Shown: piece after piece, positions 43,462-54,012 of the stretch
Position numbering within the stretch: the stretch's first letter is position 1
Layout: each line of letters begins with the position of its first letter
Assembly: GCF_006459125.1 (NCBI RefSeq)
Contig: NZ_CP041070.1
Span: forward strand, 434,001-498,000
Source of the DNA: Halarcobacter anaerophilus
GTDB lineage: Bacteria; Campylobacterota; Campylobacteria; Campylobacterales; Arcobacteraceae
Direction of reading: 5' to 3'
Length of the DNA stretch: 64,000 bases
Notes under the pieces: model-generated
What the model was told of the DNA's origin: nothing
Databases searched by the model: none
What the model saw: the letters and a program-made list of their open reading frames with translations, nothing else
Program-made: the position numbers and the translations under genes

Positions 43462-44202
43462 ATGAAAAAGATTATTTTTTTACTTTCTATTTTTATATAT
43501 TTTCAAGCAGCACCTCTTCCTAACTTTAAAATTATGACTGAAAATTATCCTCCTTTAAATATGGAGAATAAAAAAGGAGAATTAACGGGTATAGGAGTTG
43601 AAGTCTTTGATGAAATGCTTAAACGCGTAGGCTCAAAACAATCAAAGAAGGATTTTGAACTAATGCCTTGGTCAAGAGCTTATAATATAGTAAAACAGAA
43701 AAAGAATACCGTTCTTTTTACAACTTCAAGAACAAAACAAAGAGAAAACCTTTTTAAATGGGTGGGACCTTTCGGATACAGTATTAACGGACTTATTGCA
43801 AGAAAAGATTCTCATATAAAAATCAACTCCTTAAAAGATTTAAACAAGTATCAAGTAGGTACGGTTTTAAACGATGTAGGTGAACTTATACTTCTTGATA
43901 ACGGTATTTCCAAAAACAATATTCAATCAGTATCGGGTAAAAATGCGATTTTAAAATCTATTAGAAAACTTGATGCCAAAAGAATTGATCTGTTTTCTTA
44001 CGGAATCGATATGGCAAAATGGGATATGAAAGCAAACGGCATATCTTTTGATGATTATGAAGTGGTTTATGAATTAAAAAGGTTCAGTCAATACTTTACT
44101 TTTAATAAACAAACGCCTGATTACATTATAAAAATGTTCCAAGAAGCTTTAGAAAGCATGAAAAAAGACGGAACATTAGAAAAAATTGTTTCAAAATATT
44201 AA
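43462..44202 (+). CDS. Family 3 periplasmic solute-binding protein, putative signal receptor
   Basis: The 246-aa protein has a signal peptide (about 1-17) and an SBP_bac_3 fold: FKIMTENYPPLNMENKKGELTGIGVEV, PWSRAYNIVKQKKNTVLFTTSRTKQREN and a C-terminal helix with KKDGTLEKIVSKY. No ABC permease or ATPase is adjacent. Instead the next four genes are a membrane kinase, CheX, a CheY-like protein and a diguanylate cyclase, so it probably reports an extracellular amino acid or similar ligand. Its stop lies 1 nt before the kinase ATG. Confidence 0.85.
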   Translation: MKKIIFLLSIFIYFQAAPLPNFKIMTENYPPLNMENKKGELTGIGVEVFDEMLKRVGSKQSKKDFELMPWSRAYNIVKQKKNTVLFTTSRTKQRENLFKWVGPFGYSINGLIARKDSHIKINSLKDLNKYQVGTVLNDVGELILLDNGISKNNIQSVSGKNAILKSIRKLDAKRIDLFSYGIDMAKWDMKANGISFDDYEVVYELKRFSQYFTFNKQTPDYIIKMFQEALESMKKDGTLEKIVSKY

Positions 44203-44203
44203 A

Positions 44204-46504
44204 ATGAAATTAACATATAGAATAATAATTCCTCTTGTTCTGATTGTAACAATTCTTTTTACTATTCTTTTACTCTTTTTTATAAACAGTGAAAAGAAAA
44301 TTATGAAAGAGGCGCAAGAGCGTAATTTTACGAAAATAATAGAACAGTTTGAAAAAGATAAACAAATTAGACTTCAAGAAGAGAAAAAAAGTTTGGAGTT
44401 TATTACTAAAACCATATCAAGAGTAAGCTCAAAATATCTTTATGATTTTGATATAGAGTCTATTGGACGGACGTTAAAAAACTTTTTGGAAGTAGCAAAT
44501 ATAAAAGCAATAGAAGTTTATGAAAAAGGTTCCAGTGATATTTTTTATGCTCTTTATAAAGAGGGAAAGAGTATTAAAAGAGACTTTAAAAATGCAAATA
44601 CTTTGAAAAAAAGTCTAAAAAGTATTATGCAGGATATATATTGGGAAGAGAATAATCTTAATTTAGGTTTTGTTGTTGTTTATTATGATGATAAAGAGAT
44701 TATATCTCAGTTTAAAAAATCAGAAGATACTCTTTTTAAAAAATTAGAACAGAGTAATAAAAAACAAGAAGAGGATACGAACTCGGCAATTTTAAACCAA
44801 ATTTTTATTTTGGTACTTATTGCATTGATTTTGTTTGTAATGGTTTTTTATCTTACTTACAAAAGAGTTTTAAATCCTCTTAAGATTTTGAACAACGGTT
44901 TAAACGACTTTTTTCTTTTTTTACAAAATAAAAAAGATTATGCAAATGCAATAGAAATTGATACGGATGACGAATTCGGGAAAATGGCAAAAAGTTTAAA
45001 TGAAAACATAAGTGTAAGTGCCAAACTTCATGAAGAGATTTTTCAGTTAAATACAAATCTTGAAGAGAGAATTTTAGAAAGAACTAAAAAAATTTCAACT
45101 TTATTGGATAATGCAGACCAAGGCTTTTTATCTTTTTCTAAAAATTTAGTTATAGATCAAGAGTATTCACAAGAGTGCGAAAAAATATTTAAGAAAAATA
45201 TTGCAGGATTAAAAATCGGGAAGTTGTTATATTCTGAAAATGAAGAGAAAAGAGAGTTTTTTGAAGAGACTTTAAGCTCTCTATTCGGAGAATCAAATGA
45301 ACTAAAAATAAAAAATATATTATCTTTGCTTCAAAATGAGTTTAGAATAAACAGAAAAGCAATTCACGTAAAATACAAACTTGTTGAAGCCGATAGATTT
45401 ATGCTTATTTTTACGGATATAACTGCCCAAAAAATATTAGAAAAAAGAGTTTTAAAAGAGAGAGATACTCTTAAAATGATAGTTTCTGTTATAACAGACA
45501 GCGATGAGTTTTTTGAACTAATAGATGAGTTTGAAAATTTTTGTAAAAAAGGTGAAGCTATTATCGATAAGAGTAAAACTGCACTTAACAATACTACAAT
45601 TTTATATAGAACTATACATACTTTTAAAGGGCTCTTTTCTCAAAAAGAGATGAAATTTGTAGTTAAAAAACTGCATGAATTTGAATCTTTATTGTCAAAA
45701 CTTTTAAAATCTCAAGACAACAGCAATGCTTATTTAGTAGAACTTATTAAAAGTGCGGATTTTAAAACATATTTGGATGAAGAGCTCAATACCATAAAAT
45801 CAATTTTGGGAGACGAACTATTTAATAAAAGAGGTAAAATAGTCGTAGAAGAGGAGACTTTATCAAAAATTGAGGATGAAATCTATAAAATCTCACAAAA
45901 AAGCGGACTTTTTAAAGAGTATGAACATGTAATTGAAGATATTAAAAGTTTGAAAAACAGACCTATTTATCTTATGTTTAATTCATATGCAAAACTTGTA
46001 TCTCAATTAAGTGCCCAGTTAAATAAACATATTTATCCTTTGGATGTTATTGTTAGTAAAGATCTTTTGGTAAAAGAGGAGATAAAACCTTTTATAAAAT
46101 CCTTAGTACATGTTTTTAGAAATTGTGTAGATCACGGAATTGAGAGTATGGAAGAGAGATTTGAAAAAGATAAAGATGAAATAGGAACAATCAGCTGCTC
46201 GATTTTTGAAGAGAATGAAGAGTTGCATATACTTATAGCTGATGACGGGAAAGGTATAGATCTTGATAAATTGACTCTAAAAGCTAAATCTTTGGGAATA
46301 GATACCTCAAAGATGAAAAAAGAGGATATACTAGAGCTTATTTTTAAAGATAAAATATCAACAAGCGATGAGGTAAGCAGTATTTCAGGAAGAGGAATAG
46401 GTATGTCTGCGGTGAAAGACGAGTTAGAGAAATTAAACGGTAATGTAAATATTACTACACAAAAAGATATCGGTACGACTTTTGAATTTATAATCCCAAA
46501 ATAA
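44204..46504 (+). CDS. Membrane-bound Hpt/HATPase signalling kinase (CheA-like, no CheW domain)
   Basis: Starting at the ATG at 44204 (MKLTYRIIIPLVL), 1 nt after the upstream stop, the protein has 766 residues. Membrane helices at about 7-27 and 200-218 enclose a periplasmic domain. A HAMP-like segment and coiled coil follow, then a PAS-like region (about 300-410). An Hpt domain contains H472 in YRTIHTFKGLFS. The ATPase domain has FRNCVDHGIES, ADDGKGID and GRGIGMSAV and ends at GTTFEFIIPK. This is CheA chemistry (Hpt phosphorylated by a following ATPase domain) without the CheW-like tail. Its partners should be the next genes. Confidence 0.85.
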   Translation: MKLTYRIIIPLVLIVTILFTILLLFFINSEKKIMKEAQERNFTKIIEQFEKDKQIRLQEEKKSLEFITKTISRVSSKYLYDFDIESIGRTLKNFLEVANIKAIEVYEKGSSDIFYALYKEGKSIKRDFKNANTLKKSLKSIMQDIYWEENNLNLGFVVVYYDDKEIISQFKKSEDTLFKKLEQSNKKQEEDTNSAILNQIFILVLIALILFVMVFYLTYKRVLNPLKILNNGLNDFFLFLQNKKDYANAIEIDTDDEFGKMAKSLNENISVSAKLHEEIFQLNTNLEERILERTKKISTLLDNADQGFLSFSKNLVIDQEYSQECEKIFKKNIAGLKIGKLLYSENEEKREFFEETLSSLFGESNELKIKNILSLLQNEFRINRKAIHVKYKLVEADRFMLIFTDITAQKILEKRVLKERDTLKMIVSVITDSDEFFELIDEFENFCKKGEAIIDKSKTALNNTTILYRTIHTFKGLFSQKEMKFVVKKLHEFESLLSKLLKSQDNSNAYLVELIKSADFKTYLDEELNTIKSILGDELFNKRGKIVVEEETLSKIEDEIYKISQKSGLFKEYEHVIEDIKSLKNRPIYLMFNSYAKLVSQLSAQLNKHIYPLDVIVSKDLLVKEEIKPFIKSLVHVFRNCVDHGIESMEERFEKDKDEIGTISCSIFEENEELHILIADDGKGIDLDKLTLKAKSLGIDTSKMKKEDILELIFKDKISTSDEVSSISGRGIGMSAVKDELEKLNGNVNITTQKDIGTTFEFIIPK

Positions 46505-46513
46505 GGAGCATGT

Positions 46514-46990
46514 ATGATTTTGGATTCATTGCTTTTACAAGCAAGACTTTTTTTAGAAGAGGATATGGAAATATCTATATTAAACAGTAAACAAATTGAT
46601 ATTTCAAGCCCCCAAAAACTTGTTCTGAAAAACAGAACTTCAATGATAGGAACAGGTGGAACACTAAATATAATGCTGGTTATAAGCTTTGAAAAAAATA
46701 TTTTATCAAAACTTGTAGAAAATTTTATGGAGGGAGAAGAGATTGAAGATGAGGAGTTAGATGAGATTGAAGATAGTGTTTCAGGAGAAGTTTTAAACAC
46801 TATTGTAGGACTCTCTTTACCGACTTTTCCCAATAGAGGAAAGGGAATTACTATTACTCCTCCGATTTCGGTAAATGATGCAAGTAGTATTTACAAACAT
46901 AAAGATTCGAAAATTATATGTGCAACAGTTCAGACAGAATATGGAGATATTGTTATAAGTGCAGTCGGTTCGAAAGATCAGATAAAATAA
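46514..46990 (+). CDS. CheX-type phosphatase
   Basis: The 158-aa protein has the CheC/CheX fold. Its single active-site motif E92-V-L-N95 (SGEVLNTIVGL) matches the ExxN signature of CheX, which dephosphorylates CheY-like proteins. A short acidic stretch (EGEEIEDEELDEIED) precedes the motif. It lies 9 nt after the kinase and 9 nt before the CheY-like gene, so all three are clearly one unit. It would switch off the response regulator next door. Confidence 0.83.
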   Translation: MILDSLLLQARLFLEEDMEISILNSKQIDISSPQKLVLKNRTSMIGTGGTLNIMLVISFEKNILSKLVENFMEGEEIEDEELDEIEDSVSGEVLNTIVGLSLPTFPNRGKGITITPPISVNDASSIYKHKDSKIICATVQTEYGDIVISAVGSKDQIK

Positions 46991-46999
46991 GGAAAATAG

Positions 47000-47416
47000 A
47001 TGTTAAAAGTTTTAATTGTAGATGATTCACTAATTATTAGAAAAAAAATTACAAAAAATATTGAAAAATTAGGACATAAAGTTATATTTGCAGCACAAAA
47101 CGGGAAAGAGGCAATTGAAGCATATAATGCAAAAAAACCCGATTTGGTTACTATGGATATTACAATGCCCGATATGGATGGAATTACAGCTGTTAAAAGT
47201 ATAATTAAAGATGATCCAAAAGCAAAAATTATCATGGTTACTTCCCACGGTCAAGAAGAGATGGTTATAAAATCTATCCAAGCAGGTGCCGTAGGGTATA
47301 TGCTAAAACCAATTACCGAAGATAAACTTTTACAAAGTATTGCCGAGGTATTTCCTGAATATGCAAAAGATGAAGATTCTGAAGAACTTTATTTACTGGA
47401 CGATGATGATTTCTAG
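47000..47416 (+). CDS. Single-domain response regulator (CheY-like) with acidic tail
   Basis: The 138-aa receiver has acidic residues D8 and D9, phosphoacceptor D53 (TMDITMPDMDG), T81/S82 and K103 (MLKPI). It has no DNA-binding output domain. The last 20 residues are an acidic extension (DEDSEELYLLDDDDF) not found in ordinary CheY. Flanked by CheX and a diguanylate cyclase, it probably relays phosphate from the Hpt kinase and acts by protein contact, perhaps on the cyclase. The gene after it starts 8 nt downstream. Confidence 0.9.
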   Translation: MLKVLIVDDSLIIRKKITKNIEKLGHKVIFAAQNGKEAIEAYNAKKPDLVTMDITMPDMDGITAVKSIIKDDPKAKIIMVTSHGQEEMVIKSIQAGAVGYMLKPITEDKLLQSIAEVFPEYAKDEDSEELYLLDDDDF

Positions 47417-47424
47417 GAGCTATA

Positions 47425-48363
47425 ATGATGCAAGAGAATAGATTATTTGAAGCCTTACTTGATGTAATACCTTTTGCTGCATATGCAGTTGATGTAGAGA
47501 CCTATGAAGTAGTTTATGCAAATAAAATGATGAGTGAAAGTCTATTTGCTCCAAGAGAAGAGTTTTGTTGGAAGAAAGTTTTCGGACAAGAAGAGATTTG
47601 TGCGTGGTGTCAAGTTCCTTCTTTAAAGCAAAGAAGCAAGCAGTATAAAAACGATAAATTAATAAGCAGCTTTTTTGATGAGGCTACGGATAAATGGTTT
47701 CAAGCTTTTGATGAATTGATAAGCTGGCCCGATGGAAGAACGGTAAAATATACTATTCTTGTAGATATTTCGGAGCAAAAAGAGATTCAAGCATCAATGA
47801 TAAAAACCCATGCCAAACTTGCAATTCAATCAAAAAAACTGCAACAAGCAAATAAAAAATTAAAATATCTGTCTGAAAAAGATTATTTAACAGGTATAGA
47901 TAATAGACGAAGCTATTTTAAAAAAGGTATTGAACTTTTTGAAGCTCCTTTGGAAGAGCCTTATGAGTTATATGTATCAATGCTGGATTTAGATAAATTT
48001 AAAAATATAAACGACACATTCGGACATAACATAGGAGACGATGTTTTAAAAGAGTTTACTAAAATAATAGAAAATCAGCTTGATGAAAACGATATTTTTG
48101 CAAGATTAGGCGGGGAAGAGTTTAGTATAATTTTAGTAAGTGACAATAAAGACGATGTTATAACAAAATTTGAAACTATAAAAAACAGAGTCAAAAATAT
48201 AGATTTGAAAGTAGACGGTAAACCTTTAGAGATAAGCGTAAGTATAGGCTTTGATAGAAGAAATAAAGAGGATAAATCTTTAGATATGATTTTAGAAAGA
48301 GTAGATGGATACTTATATGATGCAAAAAATGAGGGTAGAGATAGATTAAAGTTTAGATTATAA
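47425..48363 (+). CDS. Soluble PAS-GGDEF diguanylate cyclase
   Basis: The 312-aa protein has an N-terminal PAS domain (about 5-125) with cysteines C48, C59 and C62 (FCWKKVFGQEEICAWC). A helical linker (about 125-150) leads to a GGDEF domain with GGEEF at 229-233. The RxxD inhibitory site is replaced by DEND, so feedback inhibition by c-di-GMP is probably weak. It has no membrane helix. An AGGAG ribosome-binding site lies 6 nt before tandem ATG codons. It is the apparent output of the cassette beginning at 43462. Confidence 0.9.
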   Translation: MMQENRLFEALLDVIPFAAYAVDVETYEVVYANKMMSESLFAPREEFCWKKVFGQEEICAWCQVPSLKQRSKQYKNDKLISSFFDEATDKWFQAFDELISWPDGRTVKYTILVDISEQKEIQASMIKTHAKLAIQSKKLQQANKKLKYLSEKDYLTGIDNRRSYFKKGIELFEAPLEEPYELYVSMLDLDKFKNINDTFGHNIGDDVLKEFTKIIENQLDENDIFARLGGEEFSIILVSDNKDDVITKFETIKNRVKNIDLKVDGKPLEISVSIGFDRRNKEDKSLDMILERVDGYLYDAKNEGRDRLKFRL

Positions 48364-48398: not shown

Positions 48399-49229
48399 AT
48401 GAAAAATTTTATATTAAAAAACTGGAATAGACTTTTTTTACTGTTTTTTACAATCTCTGCTTTGTTTTTAGCTCTTAGTTTTACAATAGATGAAGATGCA
48501 AAAAAATTAGTAGATGACTCTTTTAAACAAGCGGTAATTGTTTTTGGAAGTGCAAAAGCCTTAAATGCAGTTATCTCCCTAGCTCAAGGAACAGAATTAG
48601 ACTTGCCTTTTGTTATTGTGGCAATAGGACAGGTCTTAGATCCTATAAATGATTTAGTTGAACAGTTCTCTTTAGTGATGCTTGCTAGTATGACTTCTCT
48701 TGGTATCCAAAAAATTTTATTGGGTTTTGTAACAAATGATATTTACAACTATACTCTTTTGATTTTTGTATTGATTTTTAATATTTGGCTTTTTAAACGT
48801 TTTAACAAAGATGAAAAGTTAAGAGATATTTTTTTTAAGATCACTTTGGTTCTGCTTTTTTTAAGATTTGCAATTCCTATGATAAGTTATGTAAATGATA
48901 TATCTTATAACTATTTTGTCAAACCGGAATATAATATAGAAAAACTAAATGAAAATATTATCCAAGTAAAAGACAATGTTAGTGAAGTAACTCAAAACAC
49001 CATAAAACAAAAAGAAGACAACTCTTTTTTAGATAAAGTTATAGAAAAGTTCGACAGCAGTTATTATGAGAGAAAAATAGATGAATACAGCAGTGCTGTA
49101 GATAATTCAAGTGAATATATTATCGACTTGATTATCGTATTCGTATTTCAAACTATACTTCTTCCTGTTGTTTTTCTTTTTATTTTGTATTTTTTTATAA
49201 AATCTTTATTTTCTATAAGAAACTCCTAA
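48399..49229 (+). CDS. Membrane protein of unknown function
   Basis: The 276-aa protein has an N-terminal membrane helix (about 10-28), two to three helices between 70 and 165, and a last helix at about 243-268. A charged, probably extracytoplasmic or cytoplasmic helical segment (about 180-240) lies before the last helix. No motif is recognised; QGTELDLPFVIVAIGQVLDP is the most conserved-looking part. It follows the diguanylate cyclase by 35 nt and may be expressed with it. Its end overlaps the convergent ThrE-like gene by 4 nt. Confidence 0.68.
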   Translation: MKNFILKNWNRLFLLFFTISALFLALSFTIDEDAKKLVDDSFKQAVIVFGSAKALNAVISLAQGTELDLPFVIVAIGQVLDPINDLVEQFSLVMLASMTSLGIQKILLGFVTNDIYNYTLLIFVLIFNIWLFKRFNKDEKLRDIFFKITLVLLFLRFAIPMISYVNDISYNYFVKPEYNIEKLNENIIQVKDNVSEVTQNTIKQKEDNSFLDKVIEKFDSSYYERKIDEYSSAVDNSSEYIIDLIIVFVFQTILLPVVFLFILYFFIKSLFSIRNS

Positions 49230-50489: not shown

Positions 50490-51241
50490 CTATTAGGGGG
50501 ATTCTTTATTTTTAATATTTTCCCGTTATCATCTGCAATATAGAGGTTTCCTTTTTTATCAAAAGCAACTCCTTCTTGTGCAAATTTTTTAGGAAGTTTG
50601 TATTTTTTTATGACTCTTCTTTTTTTTATATTATAGCTAATTAATAAAGAGTTTTTGTCACTTATCATGTATAAAATATCTTCATAAAAAGTAAGTCCTG
50701 AAACATCGGTAAATCCGTGGTTTATTATATCTTCTATTTTTAAGCTTTTTTTATCAAGACTGTAGTTCAAAATTACAATTACGGAAGAGTCTTTTTTAGG
50801 ATATTTTTTTTTAGATTGATTAGAGGCGTAAATTTTGTTTTTATATAAAGCTAATCCTTCTATTCCGTTTGAGCCCTTTTTTAAAACTTTTATACCTTTG
50901 TATTCTTTATCGATTTTTATCTCTTTTATAATCTTAAAATTCTCTTTTTTTATGATTATTATAGAATCGTTTTTTTCATTTGCAAGAAGTAACAGACTAT
51001 TTTTTTCATCTATATCAATAGCTTCCAAATCATATTTGCCGATTCTTTTCTCTCTTAAGATTTTCCCTTTTGTAGTTATTTCATAAACTCTTCCTTCATC
51101 ATTTACGACAAAAAGAGTATCAGATGTTTTTGAATAACAGATTCCCGAAGCTTCAGGAATCTTGGCAATCTCTTTCTCTTTTGAAAAGAGATTTTGAAAA
51201 AGAAGAGAGGAAAGCATAAGAACTCCTAAGAATTTATTCAT
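50486..51241 (-). CDS. Secreted SdiA-regulated (YjiK-type) beta-propeller protein
   Basis: The 251-aa protein has a signal peptide (about 1-20) and repeated propeller strands: IPEASGICYSKTSDTLFVVNDEGRVYEI, a NGIEGLALYKNKIYASNQ segment and EGVAFDKKGNLYIADDNGKI. This matches the SdiA-regulated/YjiK family, whose biochemical role is unknown. It overlaps the kinase upstream and the exporter downstream by 4 nt each, hinting that it acts with the periplasmic sensor. A paralogue is encoded at 56372-57244. Confidence 0.82.
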   Translation of the reverse strand: MNKFLGVLMLSSLLFQNLFSKEKEIAKIPEASGICYSKTSDTLFVVNDEGRVYEITTKGKILREKRIGKYDLEAIDIDEKNSLLLLANEKNDSIIIIKKENFKIIKEIKIDKEYKGIKVLKKGSNGIEGLALYKNKIYASNQSKKKYPKKDSSVIVILNYSLDKKSLKIEDIINHGFTDVSGLTFYEDILYMISDKNSLLISYNIKKRRVIKKYKLPKKFAQEGVAFDKKGNLYIADDNGKILKIKNPPNR

Positions 51242-54012
51242 ACTTTTGCTTTTTGTGTAGGAATAGATATTGTAAAGAGTGCGCCTGCATATCTGTCGTT
51301 ATTATATGTAAAAGAGGAGTTTGAAACTTTTAAAACACCGTTTAGATGTTTCGTTACAATCTCATTTGACATATATAAACCGATTCCCGTTCCTTGGGAC
51401 TTATGTTTTGTCGTAAAATATGGTTCAAAAACTCTGTTTATAATTTTTGCAGGAATTCCTCCGGCATTATCTTTTATCTTTATATGTAAAAGATTGTTTT
51501 TGCTGATAGTTGATATAAAGATATATTTTTTTTCTTGATTTTTTGAATTTAAAGCATCTATTGCATTATTGAGAATATTTAGAAGAATTTGTATTAATTC
51601 GCTTTCTATAGTCTCTATTTTAATATCTTTAAGATCTTTTACTATTTCGATATTATATTTTTTTACTCTTGTGCTTACAAGTGAAAGGGCTTTTTCAATA
51701 GTTGAATCAATAGTGAAAAGAGCTTTCTCTTTTCTTGGATTAAAAAAGTTTCTAAAATCATCAATAGTTTTTGAAAGATATTGAGAGTGTTCATTTATTG
51801 ATTTAACGCTTTTATATAAAAACTCTTTTGAGATTTCATTGTTCATTTCAAGTTGTATTTGTAATCCTGTTGAAGCAGTTGAAATAACAGATAAAGGCTG
51901 TCTCCATTGGTGGGCAATATTCTCAAGCATCTCACCTAATGCCGCCATTTTTGACTGTTGTGCCAGCATAGAATCTTTTTCTCTTTTTTGTAGTTCAAGC
52001 TCTTTTATTTTTGTTAAATCAAAAACTGTTCCTATTACGACTATAGGTTTATTATTTGAATCAAATTTGGTTACTTTTGTCGTAAGTTGGATATATTTTA
52101 TTGAGTTATCTCTTAATTCTATTCTTAATTCAACAGCTTTTCTTTTATCACTTTTTGTTGCTTTATAAAGATGAATTTTAACTCTTTTTCTATCGTCTTC
52201 ATGAACAAAAGATAAAAATGCGGTCAAAGAAGGATTTATCTCATTTGGATATAGTCCGAAAATTTTAAAGTGTTCATCACTCCATTGTAAAGTTTTTGTT
52301 TTTGTATTGTAACTAAAGCTTCCAAGTCTCGCAATCTTTTGAGCTTCATCTAAAAGATAATTTGCTTTTATCAACTCTTTTGTTTTTCTATCGACTCTTT
52401 TTTCCAGCTCTTCATTTAACTCTCTTAACTCTTTTGTTCTTTCATTTACTAACTGTTTTAAACTTATGTTTCGTTTCACGTTTAGTTGATTTTTATATAT
52501 AAGAATCAGAAAAATAATAAAAATTATAGAGATAGCTATCCAAAAGTTTGTATAATCGAAATTCTCTTCAAACTGTACATTGTTCCATTTATTTAAAATC
52601 TGGGAAATCTCTTTTTCGTCTAAAGAGGAGATTACTTTATTAAAAATAGTTTGAAGTTGAGGATAATCATCTCTTATCATAATTTCAATTTTATAGTCAA
52701 GTCCCGTGTTACCGCTGATTTTTAGGTTATTAAATTTTAGTTTATTTATATAATAGATTAAATTAGGTTTGATATCGACATAAGCAAAAGCCTCTCCTCT
52801 TGAAACCTTTTTTAATCCCTCTTTGACATCTTTTACTATTATTAACTCTATTTGAGGAAAATTCTCTTTTAAAAGTTTTTGAGCGGTAAAGTTTCTTACT
52901 ACGGCTATTTTTTTGTTAAAAAGATAATCAATATTTTCAATAAAATTTTCATCTTTAAGAGTTACTATAGAGAAAGGAAATTCAATATATGGTTTAGAAA
53001 ACAAAGAGTATTTGATTCTATCTTTTGTCTCTCCCGAACTAAAAATTATATCATTTGATTTATCTTTTATTGAGTTTAACTGTTGGGTGAAACTATCGGA
53101 AAAATTGTATTCGCATTTTAGATTTAATTTACTTTTTATAACTTCCCAAATTTCGGAAGCCATACCGTCAGGTTCACCTTTTTCGTTTTTAAAAGTTACC
53201 GGTCTCCAATCATTTGAAACAGATACTTTGAAAACATTGTTTTGAATAAAGTCTTTCTCTTTTGGAGTCAGAGAAAAACTTTTTTTATAGATTTGTTGAT
53301 TTTTATCTAAAATCCAACTGTTTTCTATATCATAAAGTTCTTCACTGGTAAGTTTTTTAAAACCTTCATTGAAAATCTCGATTAAATCTTTGTTTTTTGA
53401 GATAACTTTGATTGAGGTGTAATCCTGCATAGGTTCCAAAGGGTTGATTTTATGAAAAAAGTTGTTTCTTAGGGCATAAAACTCTATTGCAACCTTGTCA
53501 TCAAAGATTAAATCCAGTTTTTTTGATAATAAATCTTTAAAAAGAAGTTTATAATCTTTATAAACCAAAATTTGTGAAAAAGGGAATTTTTCGCTTATAA
53601 GTTTTTTGTGATCGTTTCCTACAATTCCTATTAAATAAGGAGTTTTAAAATTGAAATCTCTATGTAAATCTTTATTTATAAAAAGCGAAGTTTTTGTTCT
53701 GTATACGGTAAAAGAGCTCTTCATCCATAGTTCGTAAGGTGCAGTTCCTAAAAAGAAATCAACTTCTCCTTTTTTTGCCAAATTTATTGCATTGTCCCAG
53801 AATTTTCCGTTTATAAATTTAATTTTATAATTGTTTTTTTTAGCCCATAATTTCCAATAATCAATAAGTAAACCTTCGGGTTCTTTTTTTTCAAGATAAG
53901 AAAAGGGCGCAAAATCAGGATCATAAGATACAGTAAAATATTTAGGTGTTGATGCCTTAATTGTGTTAATTAACAGAAATAGAAGAAGAAAAACTCTTAA
54001 AATTGTTGGCAT
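51238..54012 (-). CDS. Sensor histidine kinase with two periplasmic solute-binding domains
   Basis: The 924-aa protein has a signal peptide (about 1-20), then two tandem SBP_bac_3 domains (about 24-250 and 260-480; starts YFTVSYDPDFAPFSYLEKKE and FKVSVSNDWRPVTFKNEKGE). A membrane helix lies at about 494-512, followed by a coiled coil and a PAS domain (about 560-680). The kinase core has IAHQWRQPLS, NAIDAL, DNAGGI and GTGIGLYM. The layout is that of BvgS/EvgS-type venus-flytrap sensors without receiver or Hpt domains. No response-regulator gene is adjacent. The beta-propeller gene downstream overlaps it. Confidence 0.92.
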   Translation of the reverse strand: MPTILRVFLLLFLLINTIKASTPKYFTVSYDPDFAPFSYLEKKEPEGLLIDYWKLWAKKNNYKIKFINGKFWDNAINLAKKGEVDFFLGTAPYELWMKSSFTVYRTKTSLFINKDLHRDFNFKTPYLIGIVGNDHKKLISEKFPFSQILVYKDYKLLFKDLLSKKLDLIFDDKVAIEFYALRNNFFHKINPLEPMQDYTSIKVISKNKDLIEIFNEGFKKLTSEELYDIENSWILDKNQQIYKKSFSLTPKEKDFIQNNVFKVSVSNDWRPVTFKNEKGEPDGMASEIWEVIKSKLNLKCEYNFSDSFTQQLNSIKDKSNDIIFSSGETKDRIKYSLFSKPYIEFPFSIVTLKDENFIENIDYLFNKKIAVVRNFTAQKLLKENFPQIELIIVKDVKEGLKKVSRGEAFAYVDIKPNLIYYINKLKFNNLKISGNTGLDYKIEIMIRDDYPQLQTIFNKVISSLDEKEISQILNKWNNVQFEENFDYTNFWIAISIIFIIFLILIYKNQLNVKRNISLKQLVNERTKELRELNEELEKRVDRKTKELIKANYLLDEAQKIARLGSFSYNTKTKTLQWSDEHFKIFGLYPNEINPSLTAFLSFVHEDDRKRVKIHLYKATKSDKRKAVELRIELRDNSIKYIQLTTKVTKFDSNNKPIVVIGTVFDLTKIKELELQKREKDSMLAQQSKMAALGEMLENIAHQWRQPLSVISTASTGLQIQLEMNNEISKEFLYKSVKSINEHSQYLSKTIDDFRNFFNPRKEKALFTIDSTIEKALSLVSTRVKKYNIEIVKDLKDIKIETIESELIQILLNILNNAIDALNSKNQEKKYIFISTISKNNLLHIKIKDNAGGIPAKIINRVFEPYFTTKHKSQGTGIGLYMSNEIVTKHLNGVLKVSNSSFTYNNDRYAGALFTISIPTQKAKV

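Follow-up and report, generated by a model that had tools for sequence, protein, structure and literature searches.

A five-gene cluster of Halarcobacter anaerophilus, with a stand-alone receiver beside a PAS-GGDEF cyclase, appears to be one variant of a wider signalling unit

Five adjacent genes of Halarcobacter anaerophilus, encoding a solute-binding protein (SBP), a membrane kinase, a CheX phosphatase, a single-domain receiver and a PAS-GGDEF cyclase, raise the question of whether they form one signalling line from a ligand outside the membrane to cyclic di-GMP (c-di-GMP). They lie in a stretch of 64,000 nucleotides (nt) of contig NZ_CP041070.1 (positions 434,001 to 498,000), hereafter the window, and the host genome is one 3.02 Mb contig. 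A preliminary description, made from the sequence alone, had read them as receptor, kinase, phosphatase, relay and output, and had suggested that the phospho-receiver controls the cyclase by direct contact. The open reading frame (ORF) listing, the raw sequence and Pfam confirm the layout that it gave, with all genes on the plus strand and intergenic gaps of 1, 9, 9 and 8 nt. Counted within the window, the features are:

43462-44202, plus strand: SBP gene, 246 amino acids (aa), signal-peptide-like N-terminus (Pfam SBP_bac_3, 64.2 bits)
44204-46504, plus strand: predicted membrane CheA-like kinase, 766 aa, ATG start (Pfam HATPase_c, 51.9 bits)
45617-45619, plus strand: codon of the predicted phosphodonor His472 in the Hpt region of the kinase (column conservation)
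46514-46990, plus strand: predicted CheX phosphatase, 158 aa, with E92-x2-N95 (Pfam CheX, 49.2 bits)
47000-47416, plus strand: single-domain receiver, 138 aa, with D53, T81, K103 and an acidic tail (Pfam Response_reg, 109.2 bits)
47425-48363, plus strand: PAS-GGDEF cyclase gene (ORF listing, Pfam)
47425-47769, plus strand: PAS of the cyclase with C48, C59 and C62, proposed docking domain for the receiver (conserved cysteines; PAS fold in the AlphaFold model)
47770-47877, plus strand: long helix joining the PAS to the output, residues 116-151, with K119 and Q122 (AlphaFold model, conservation)
47878-48363, plus strand: GGDEF cyclase domain, GGEEF motif preceded by DENDIFARL, RxxD inhibition site absent (Pfam GGDEF, 117.9 bits)

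The five Pfam matches all exceed their family cut-offs (27 bits in the case of CheX). For the kinase, the ATG at 44204 was preferred as start and leaves the gap of 1 nt; the TTG at 44186 given by the ORF tool would run into the SBP gene.

The five-gene arrangement exceeds chance. After removal of ten duplicates, 72 of the pooled annotated loci carry a PAS of this type with a profile score of at least 50 bits; L114 (46 bits) falls below this floor, and loci L028-L042, which were reached by CheX, have no PAS above it. The scores are bimodal, with 59 strong loci at 118.8 bits or more and 13 weak ones at 97.3 bits or less, and the two classes were separated at 115 bits, a cut chosen after the scores had been seen. 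Among the strong loci, a receiver lies near the PAS gene in 57, CheX in 56 and a kinase in 55, and the receiver stands directly upstream on the same strand in 55, whereas each of these four counts is 0/13 for the weak loci. When the 12 loci used to train the profile are left out, the values become 46/47, 46/47, 45/47 and 45/47, respectively, with a Fisher p of 2.7e-12 for the receiver under this post hoc cut. All strong loci except the window and L023 came from PAS searches and not via the receiver or CheX. Apart from two loci taken up below, the exceptions are L063, which has no CheX, L064, in which the order is cyclase-CheX-receiver and no kinase matches, and L164, where the receiver is on the opposite strand; no kinase match was obtained in L158, L026 and L084, the last two lying at contig ends. 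Moreover, the distances of the kinase, CheX, receiver, PAS and GGDEF domains correlate across 51 loci (Spearman 0.57-0.78, permutation maxima 0.10-0.29). As far as sequence goes, this shows that the unit travels together, contact not being implied.

These counts bear on the possibility that the cyclase is co-transcribed with the other genes and yet answers to an input of its own, its three-cysteine PAS sensing redox or metal, while the receiver has another role, such as acting on the flagellar switch or serving as a phosphate sink. Cysteines 48, 59 and 62 are invariant in the 64 PAS rows compared (the window and 63 rows from 43 named loci), including the hemerythrin-GAF-PAS-GGDEF-EAL proteins of L111 and L113, which have no receiver gene near, and kinase-CheX-receiver cores also occur without a cyclase. 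Both observations would fit a PAS that works alone. However, such a PAS does not account for the contrast between strong and weak loci in the presence of a receiver, nor for the persistence of the receiver-PAS pairing while the output domains change, and we regard this explanation as unlikely.

On the evidence of the sequences compared, the constant pair is the receiver and the PAS with its helix, and sensor and output vary around it; the five-gene composition of the window would then be one variant of a wider unit. On the sensor side, the kinase is fused to SBP_bac_3 domains in L094 and L098 and to an NMT1 binding domain in L024, L071 and L076, carries Cache domains in L085 and L104 (below the cut-off in L088), has a Ser/Thr kinase-AAA-GAF front in L102 and L105, and bears a receiver in L092. 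Within the core, kinase and CheX are fused in L109, whose CheX scores 26.6 bits, just below the Pfam value, but 114 by the profile made here, and CheX and receiver are fused in L039. The chain of roles proposed in the preliminary description thus draws support from these fusions (L094, L098, L109 and L039) and from the gene order kept in distant groups. Besides GGDEF, the outputs found on the PAS are HisKA-HATPase (L080, L089), HATPase (L063) and a hybrid kinase (L024, L084), and a PAS standing alone, with no output domain, occurs in L025, L026, L061 and L074. SpoIIE follows the PAS in L065 (71.8 bits), where no receiver gene stands beside it, and in L062 (19.7 bits against a cut-off of 25), where the gene is cut by the contig end.

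The helix of this pair may offer another docking place. The receiver may bind to the linking helix or to the GGDEF domain and not to the PAS, as SiaC does on the stalk of SiaD, a precedent for which a structure has been solved (7e6g; PMC8457831, as far as the available part of that paper describes it), and the helix is indeed conserved (K119 in 64/64 and Q122 in 62/64 PAS rows). The exchange of GGDEF for other outputs with PAS and helix retained speaks against docking on GGDEF, and the PAS-alone ORFs beside the cyclase retain the PAS, although neither observation separates the helix from the PAS. We consider docking outside the PAS quite improbable.

The preliminary description would have been weakened by a gene order confined to close relatives; instead, the order is conserved in Campylobacterota, spirochaetes, Desulfovibrionales and Alpha-, Beta- and Gammaproteobacteria. 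Neighbourhoods around the CheX-found and the first PAS-found loci were compared by single-sequence BLAST, by which weak relatives may have escaped; they have the order kinase-CheX-receiver in L023-L025 and L027-L033, and in L023-L027 the receiver gene is followed by one for a PAS-GGDEF protein (L026 begins at CheX). A PAS profile of 17 rows (A3), applied to a collection of 84,980 species, gave 44 named loci, with the receiver directly upstream in 39, CheX in 39 and a kinase within the locus in 38, as judged by profiles built here. According to the record titles, the carriers belong to Campylobacterales, Arcobacteraceae, Sulfurimonas and relatives, Spirochaetes, Solidesulfovibrio and other Desulfovibrionales, and Desulfobulbus, and further to Pleionea, which we take to be a gammaproteobacterium, to Rugamonas, Burkholderiaceae and Rhodocyclales, presumably Betaproteobacteria, and to Rhodospira and Roseospira, presumably Alphaproteobacteria. 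Named strains among them are Sulfurospirillum arcachonense DSM 9755 (L078), Solidesulfovibrio alcoholivorans DSM 5433 (L093) and Pleionea sediminis S1-5-21 (L098). Two titles, Helicobacter pylori PMSS1 (L076) and Gammaproteobacteria (L083), conflict with the 72-75% identity of these loci to the window PAS, and the records are probably mislabelled or mixed metagenome bins.

Whole genomes were also searched with the PAS. In 20 genomes picked for holding profile-A3 loci, 33 matches exceeded 120 bits, and 32 of them are loci already found, which, given how the genomes were chosen, constitutes no new evidence. The single new strong match (L146, in G334:C26) again lies behind a kinase, a CheX and a receiver; no cluster surrounds the two weak matches that are also new (77 and 64 bits). 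The PAS has a match in 22 of the 247 genomes of the class around Solidesulfovibrio; four of these were already known, and three reach only 92-102 bits. Annotation of the 18 further genomes of this class placed a strong PAS in such a cluster in 15, two of these duplicating L097 and L099, and not in the three low scorers. In a betaproteobacterial order, the PAS matches 2 of 250 genomes, one being the centre of the search and the other a 92.7-bit match without receiver. A single-protein CheX scan of genome contigs returned 188 pattern matches and no relative among them.

Taken as one signalling line, the reading that we favour with moderate confidence, the five proteins would act in sequence. Established here are the order of the genes and its conservation, intact catalytic residues, and predicted folds for the kinase and the cyclase; the contacts, the phosphotransfer and the sign of the regulation are all inferred. 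The SBP, loaded with a small ligand of the kind held by amino-acid-binding proteins, would touch the extracytoplasmic domain of the kinase and alter the ATP-dependent phosphorylation of His472 by the CheA-like P4 domain. The phosphoryl group would pass from His472 to Asp53 of the receiver, from which CheX would strip it, so that the proposed signal would be short-lived. The phospho-receiver would then dock on the PAS of the cyclase, the adjoining helix would favour a productive GGDEF dimer, and c-di-GMP would be raised or, less likely, lowered. In other lineages, the same receiver-PAS pair would drive a histidine kinase or a SpoIIE phosphatase. Docking on the PAS is suggested by the constancy of the receiver-PAS pair together with two precedents, SiaC on SiaD and RsbQ on RsbP-PAS, and the phospho-receiver may act on the PAS in the way proposed for RsbQ. 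More tentatively, and short of calling it probable, we put forward that the receiver and the three-cysteine PAS are a general exchangeable coupler, with any sensor upstream, a cyclase, kinase or SpoIIE phosphatase downstream, CheX for reset, and a PAS that also reads redox or metal, so that output would need both inputs.

At the head of the line, the SBP has no sequence match in the PDB at 1e-8; its best phmmer match, to amino-acid binding proteins, has an E of 8.1e-7, insufficient to name a ligand, and an assignment of the ligand from structure matches was rejected for this reason. It has one further, weak match in its own genome. The earlier claim that it lacks a transporter holds locally, none of the nine flanking genes tested by Pfam being an ABC (ATP-binding cassette) permease or ATPase. 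A free SBP gene followed by kinase, CheX, receiver and PAS-GGDEF genes occurs in five loci, namely the window, L023, L024, L061 and L083. Of these, L024 has an additional kinase, L061 has two SBPs, and L061 and L083 each have a lone PAS. In L041, an SBP-kinase pair and a CheX-receiver pair are divergently oriented, and a PAS of this type is absent. It may be asked whether the SBP is a stray protein of the operon and the kinase senses through its own extracytoplasmic domain, a region that is present in the AlphaFold model of the window kinase. A separate SBP gene within 8 kb accompanies just 7 of the 59 strong PAS loci, and 1 of the 13 weak ones, as would be expected of a stray. However, adjoining SBP and kinase genes recur (the window, L023, L024, L061, L083 and L041), and in L094 and L098 the binding domain is part of the kinase itself, which makes a bystander role for the SBP doubtful.

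The kinase is, to judge from hydropathy and the model, a transmembrane CheA-like enzyme. Hydrophobic stretches at about residues 7-25 and 196-218 enclose the extracytoplasmic domain, and in the AlphaFold model (mean pLDDT 77.8) strands and helices around 306-405 succeed one another as in a PAS, the Hpt region is helical and the end resembles P3-P4 of CheA. By VIA-align, whose rows for the kinase cover mainly residues 579-766, this end matches Thermotoga CheA P3P4 (4xiv; Z 22.9, root mean square deviation 4.2, 215 aligned) and P4 (8oz9; Z 23.6, deviation 1.5, 167 aligned). The NCBIfam CheA model matches residues 567-765 at E 1.6e-34, far under the model cut-off. HATPase_c spans 633-765 and the chain stops at 766, so that the CheW-like P5 is absent and, with it, the part by which CheA docks CheW. 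At E 0.1, Pfam listed neither Hpt nor PAS for any of the five proteins. The Hpt assignment rests on the conservation of H472, which lies in an HTFKG motif, is helical in the model and is histidine in all 38 rows that cover the column, the window included (the row of L097 is cut), and on below-cut-off Pfam Hpt matches in some relatives. A 300-residue query from Hpt to P4 found one further match in the same genome, a 703-aa frame covering query residues 71-299, which is presumably the chemotaxis CheA.

CheX is the sole match to the Pfam family in its genome at E 0.001. Asn95 of its catalytic pair is kept in 40/40 sequences, and the partner at position 92 is Glu in 28/40 and Asp in 12/40. D53, T81 and K103 of the receiver are each conserved in 40/40. 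Linked and unlinked receivers (52 and 9 sequences) differ weakly at five positions (K16, D58, M88, I93 and A95), but the unlinked rows are too few for these differences to be relied on. We also noted that L109 (7136-7954) has two receivers of this type in tandem, after the kinase-CheX fusion and ahead of the PAS-GGDEF gene.

In proposing direct contact with the cyclase, the preliminary description had relied on the acidic tail of the receiver. A tail with 5-11 acidic residues is confined to loci whose titles name Campylobacterota, or one of its genera or families, and to L076, L083 and L085, which have similar proteins. Receivers of the same gene order from spirochaetes, from Desulfovibrionales and Deltaproteobacteria, and from Alpha-, Beta- and Gammaproteobacteria end in tails of 1-14 residues, of which 0-2 are acidic; the same is true of two loci from Campylobacterota, L103 and L107, and the acidic tail is kept in L028 and L033, where no cyclase gene is adjacent. 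The tail was therefore rejected as a cyclase contact. Contact as such remains plausible, because the PAS, which kinases and SpoIIE phosphatases carry as well, stays with the receiver.

The AlphaFold model of the cyclase (mean pLDDT 91.3, pTM 0.62) consists of a PAS fold, helix 116-151 and GGDEF, and the leading Foldseek matches are a PAS-GGDEF-EAL protein (5xgd, E 2.2e-18), a LOV-cyclase (8c05, E 8.0e-17) and SiaD (7e6g). The PAS assignment rests on this model and on PAS_8 matches in some relatives. The GG(D/E)EF motif is present in each listed PAS-GGDEF protein, and Pfam gives a GGDEF match and no EAL match for the window cyclase. The RxxD site, expected before GGEEF in the region 48082-48108, is absent from the window cyclase, its close Campylobacterota relatives and the majority of Solidesulfovibrio cyclases, and present in spirochaete, Alpha-, Betaproteobacterial and several other members; product inhibition has therefore probably been lost in the branch of the window. 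The cyclase PAS is tandemly duplicated in L024, L025, L026, L060, L061, L074, L077 and L085, the second copy standing alone, being cut at a contig end (L060) or belonging to a hybrid kinase (L024). Copies that stand alone could compete for the receiver.

Several observations weigh against the signalling line proposed here. L065 and L112 have a strong PAS and a kinase with neither receiver nor CheX near, and in L065 an SBP gene sits between the kinase and the PAS gene. The correlated domain distances are equally expected from common descent, and it is from gene neighbourhood only that a receiver-PAS contact is deduced; no fusion of this receiver to this PAS occurs in the annotated loci. The invariant cysteines suggest that the PAS may bind a metal or cluster, or sense redox, on its own. 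L028-L033 contain kinase-CheX-receiver cores with no adjacent PAS or cyclase gene, and the receiver type can therefore have other targets; in L028, L029 and L032, the gene after the receiver is what we take, by eye, to be purL. The CheX members with Asp for Glu (L088-L096 and L098-L100) come from spirochaetes, Desulfovibrionales, two deltaproteobacterial bins and Pleionea. Finally, the parts are rare: the CheX protein search found a match in 16 of 80 genomes, its own included (4 of the 15 others of the genus), and residues 1-146 of the cyclase matched 10 of the 298 genomes of the order, again with its own and with some matches weak.

Around the cluster, the nine flanking genes examined by Pfam encode a multi-PAS kinase, AhpC, a VTT-domain protein, a short-chain dehydrogenase, two ThrE exporter parts, an SdiA-regulated protein, an SBP-kinase and a protein without match. 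Another SBP-type sensor is close by at 51238-54012 on the minus strand, a kinase that combines PAS_3 and HisKA-HATPase with two stretches of SBP_bac_3 in a single chain. No chemoreceptor or CheW match was obtained among the five genes and these nine neighbours. The gene 3' of the cyclase (48399-49229, plus strand, 276 aa) has no Pfam or NCBIfam match; it has an 82% identical neighbour in L023, and BLAST found none beside the cores of L024-L042 and L060-L070. The promoter scan gave 30 promoter-like sites against 26.2 expected, and the terminator scan two terminator-like sites against 1.3 expected, both on the minus strand.

In the cyclases under two-component control best known to us, PleD and WspR, receiver and cyclase share one polypeptide. 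The unit described here pairs a separate receiver, which has a CheX of its own, with one PAS type, and gene order keeps the two linked in distant groups, so that the way in which stand-alone receivers find their targets becomes testable, and natural swaps of sensor and output around one coupling are available for comparison. The control of c-di-GMP, the biofilm messenger, would gain a chemotaxis-type core, for which no neighbouring chemoreceptor gene was found, as a new and testable control point, and the unit is wider than the window alone suggests, recurring with sensor and output swapped. All parts come from known families, and there are precedents for the logic; the combination appears undescribed in the open literature, no description of a kinase-CheX-receiver-PAS unit having been found in open-access papers, a scope outside which most subscription papers fall.

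The cluster resembles the Thermotoga-type CheA-CheX-CheY core in the P3-P4 fold of its kinase, the ExxN of CheX and the single receiver. It differs in that the window kinase would itself be the membrane receptor and ends after P4, in the lack of a CheW or chemoreceptor gene found in the cluster and in having a cyclase as output. The Wsp/ACF chemosensory systems and PleD/WspR also lead a phosphorelay to a cyclase, with the receiver fused to GGDEF; unlike them, the window has its receiver separate from GGDEF, and no chemoreceptor or CheW match in the cluster.

Among published systems, one paper mentions CheX 16 times in its main text and neither GGDEF nor diguanylate, and the CheX that it treats lies by fliNO or thiC (PMC9321776). 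A review of c-di-GMP sensing names partner proteins such as H-NOX and PapB, and the words CheX, single-domain and stand-alone are absent from its main text (PMC8846402). A PAS-GGDEF enzyme that binds aromatic hydrocarbons has, as presented there, an arrangement different from that of the window (PMC8547461). Like NspS-MbaA (PMC9993111), the cluster would let a periplasmic binding protein control c-di-GMP without transport. MbaA, however, is a membrane GGDEF-EAL protein acting in one step, while the cluster would place a phosphorelay in between and has a cyclase without EAL match. The SBP-activated sensor kinases AgtS and AruS also have the sbp gene near the kinase gene, and no link to c-di-GMP via a receiver-PAS pair is seen in what that source presents (PMC11113362). 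As in SiaABCD of Pseudomonas aeruginosa, a separate small protein controlled by phosphorylation would switch a GGDEF enzyme lacking a receiver domain. SiaC, by contrast, is a DUF1987 protein that is phosphorylated on Thr and binds the stalk when unphosphorylated, according to the portion consulted (PMC8457831); the window cyclase scores 143.9 bits against the SiaD-type model NF038266, whose cut-off is 290, and none of the five proteins matches DUF1987. The likeness to RsbQ/RsbP-PAS lies in the gene of a small partner that immediately precedes one for a PAS-coil protein with exchangeable output. For that family, 45 such neighbouring pairs are described, the output being a PPM phosphatase, a kinase or GGDEF, and a model in which the partners touch directly has genetic support (PMC3183031). 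For the phosphatase output, the likeness is qualified by our full-length SpoIIE case, L065, which has no receiver near, while L062 has a receiver and a cut gene. RsbQ is an alpha/beta hydrolase, and its module as described there includes no kinase, CheX or SBP, whereas here a receiver, set behind such a core, would occupy the place of RsbQ beside the PAS.

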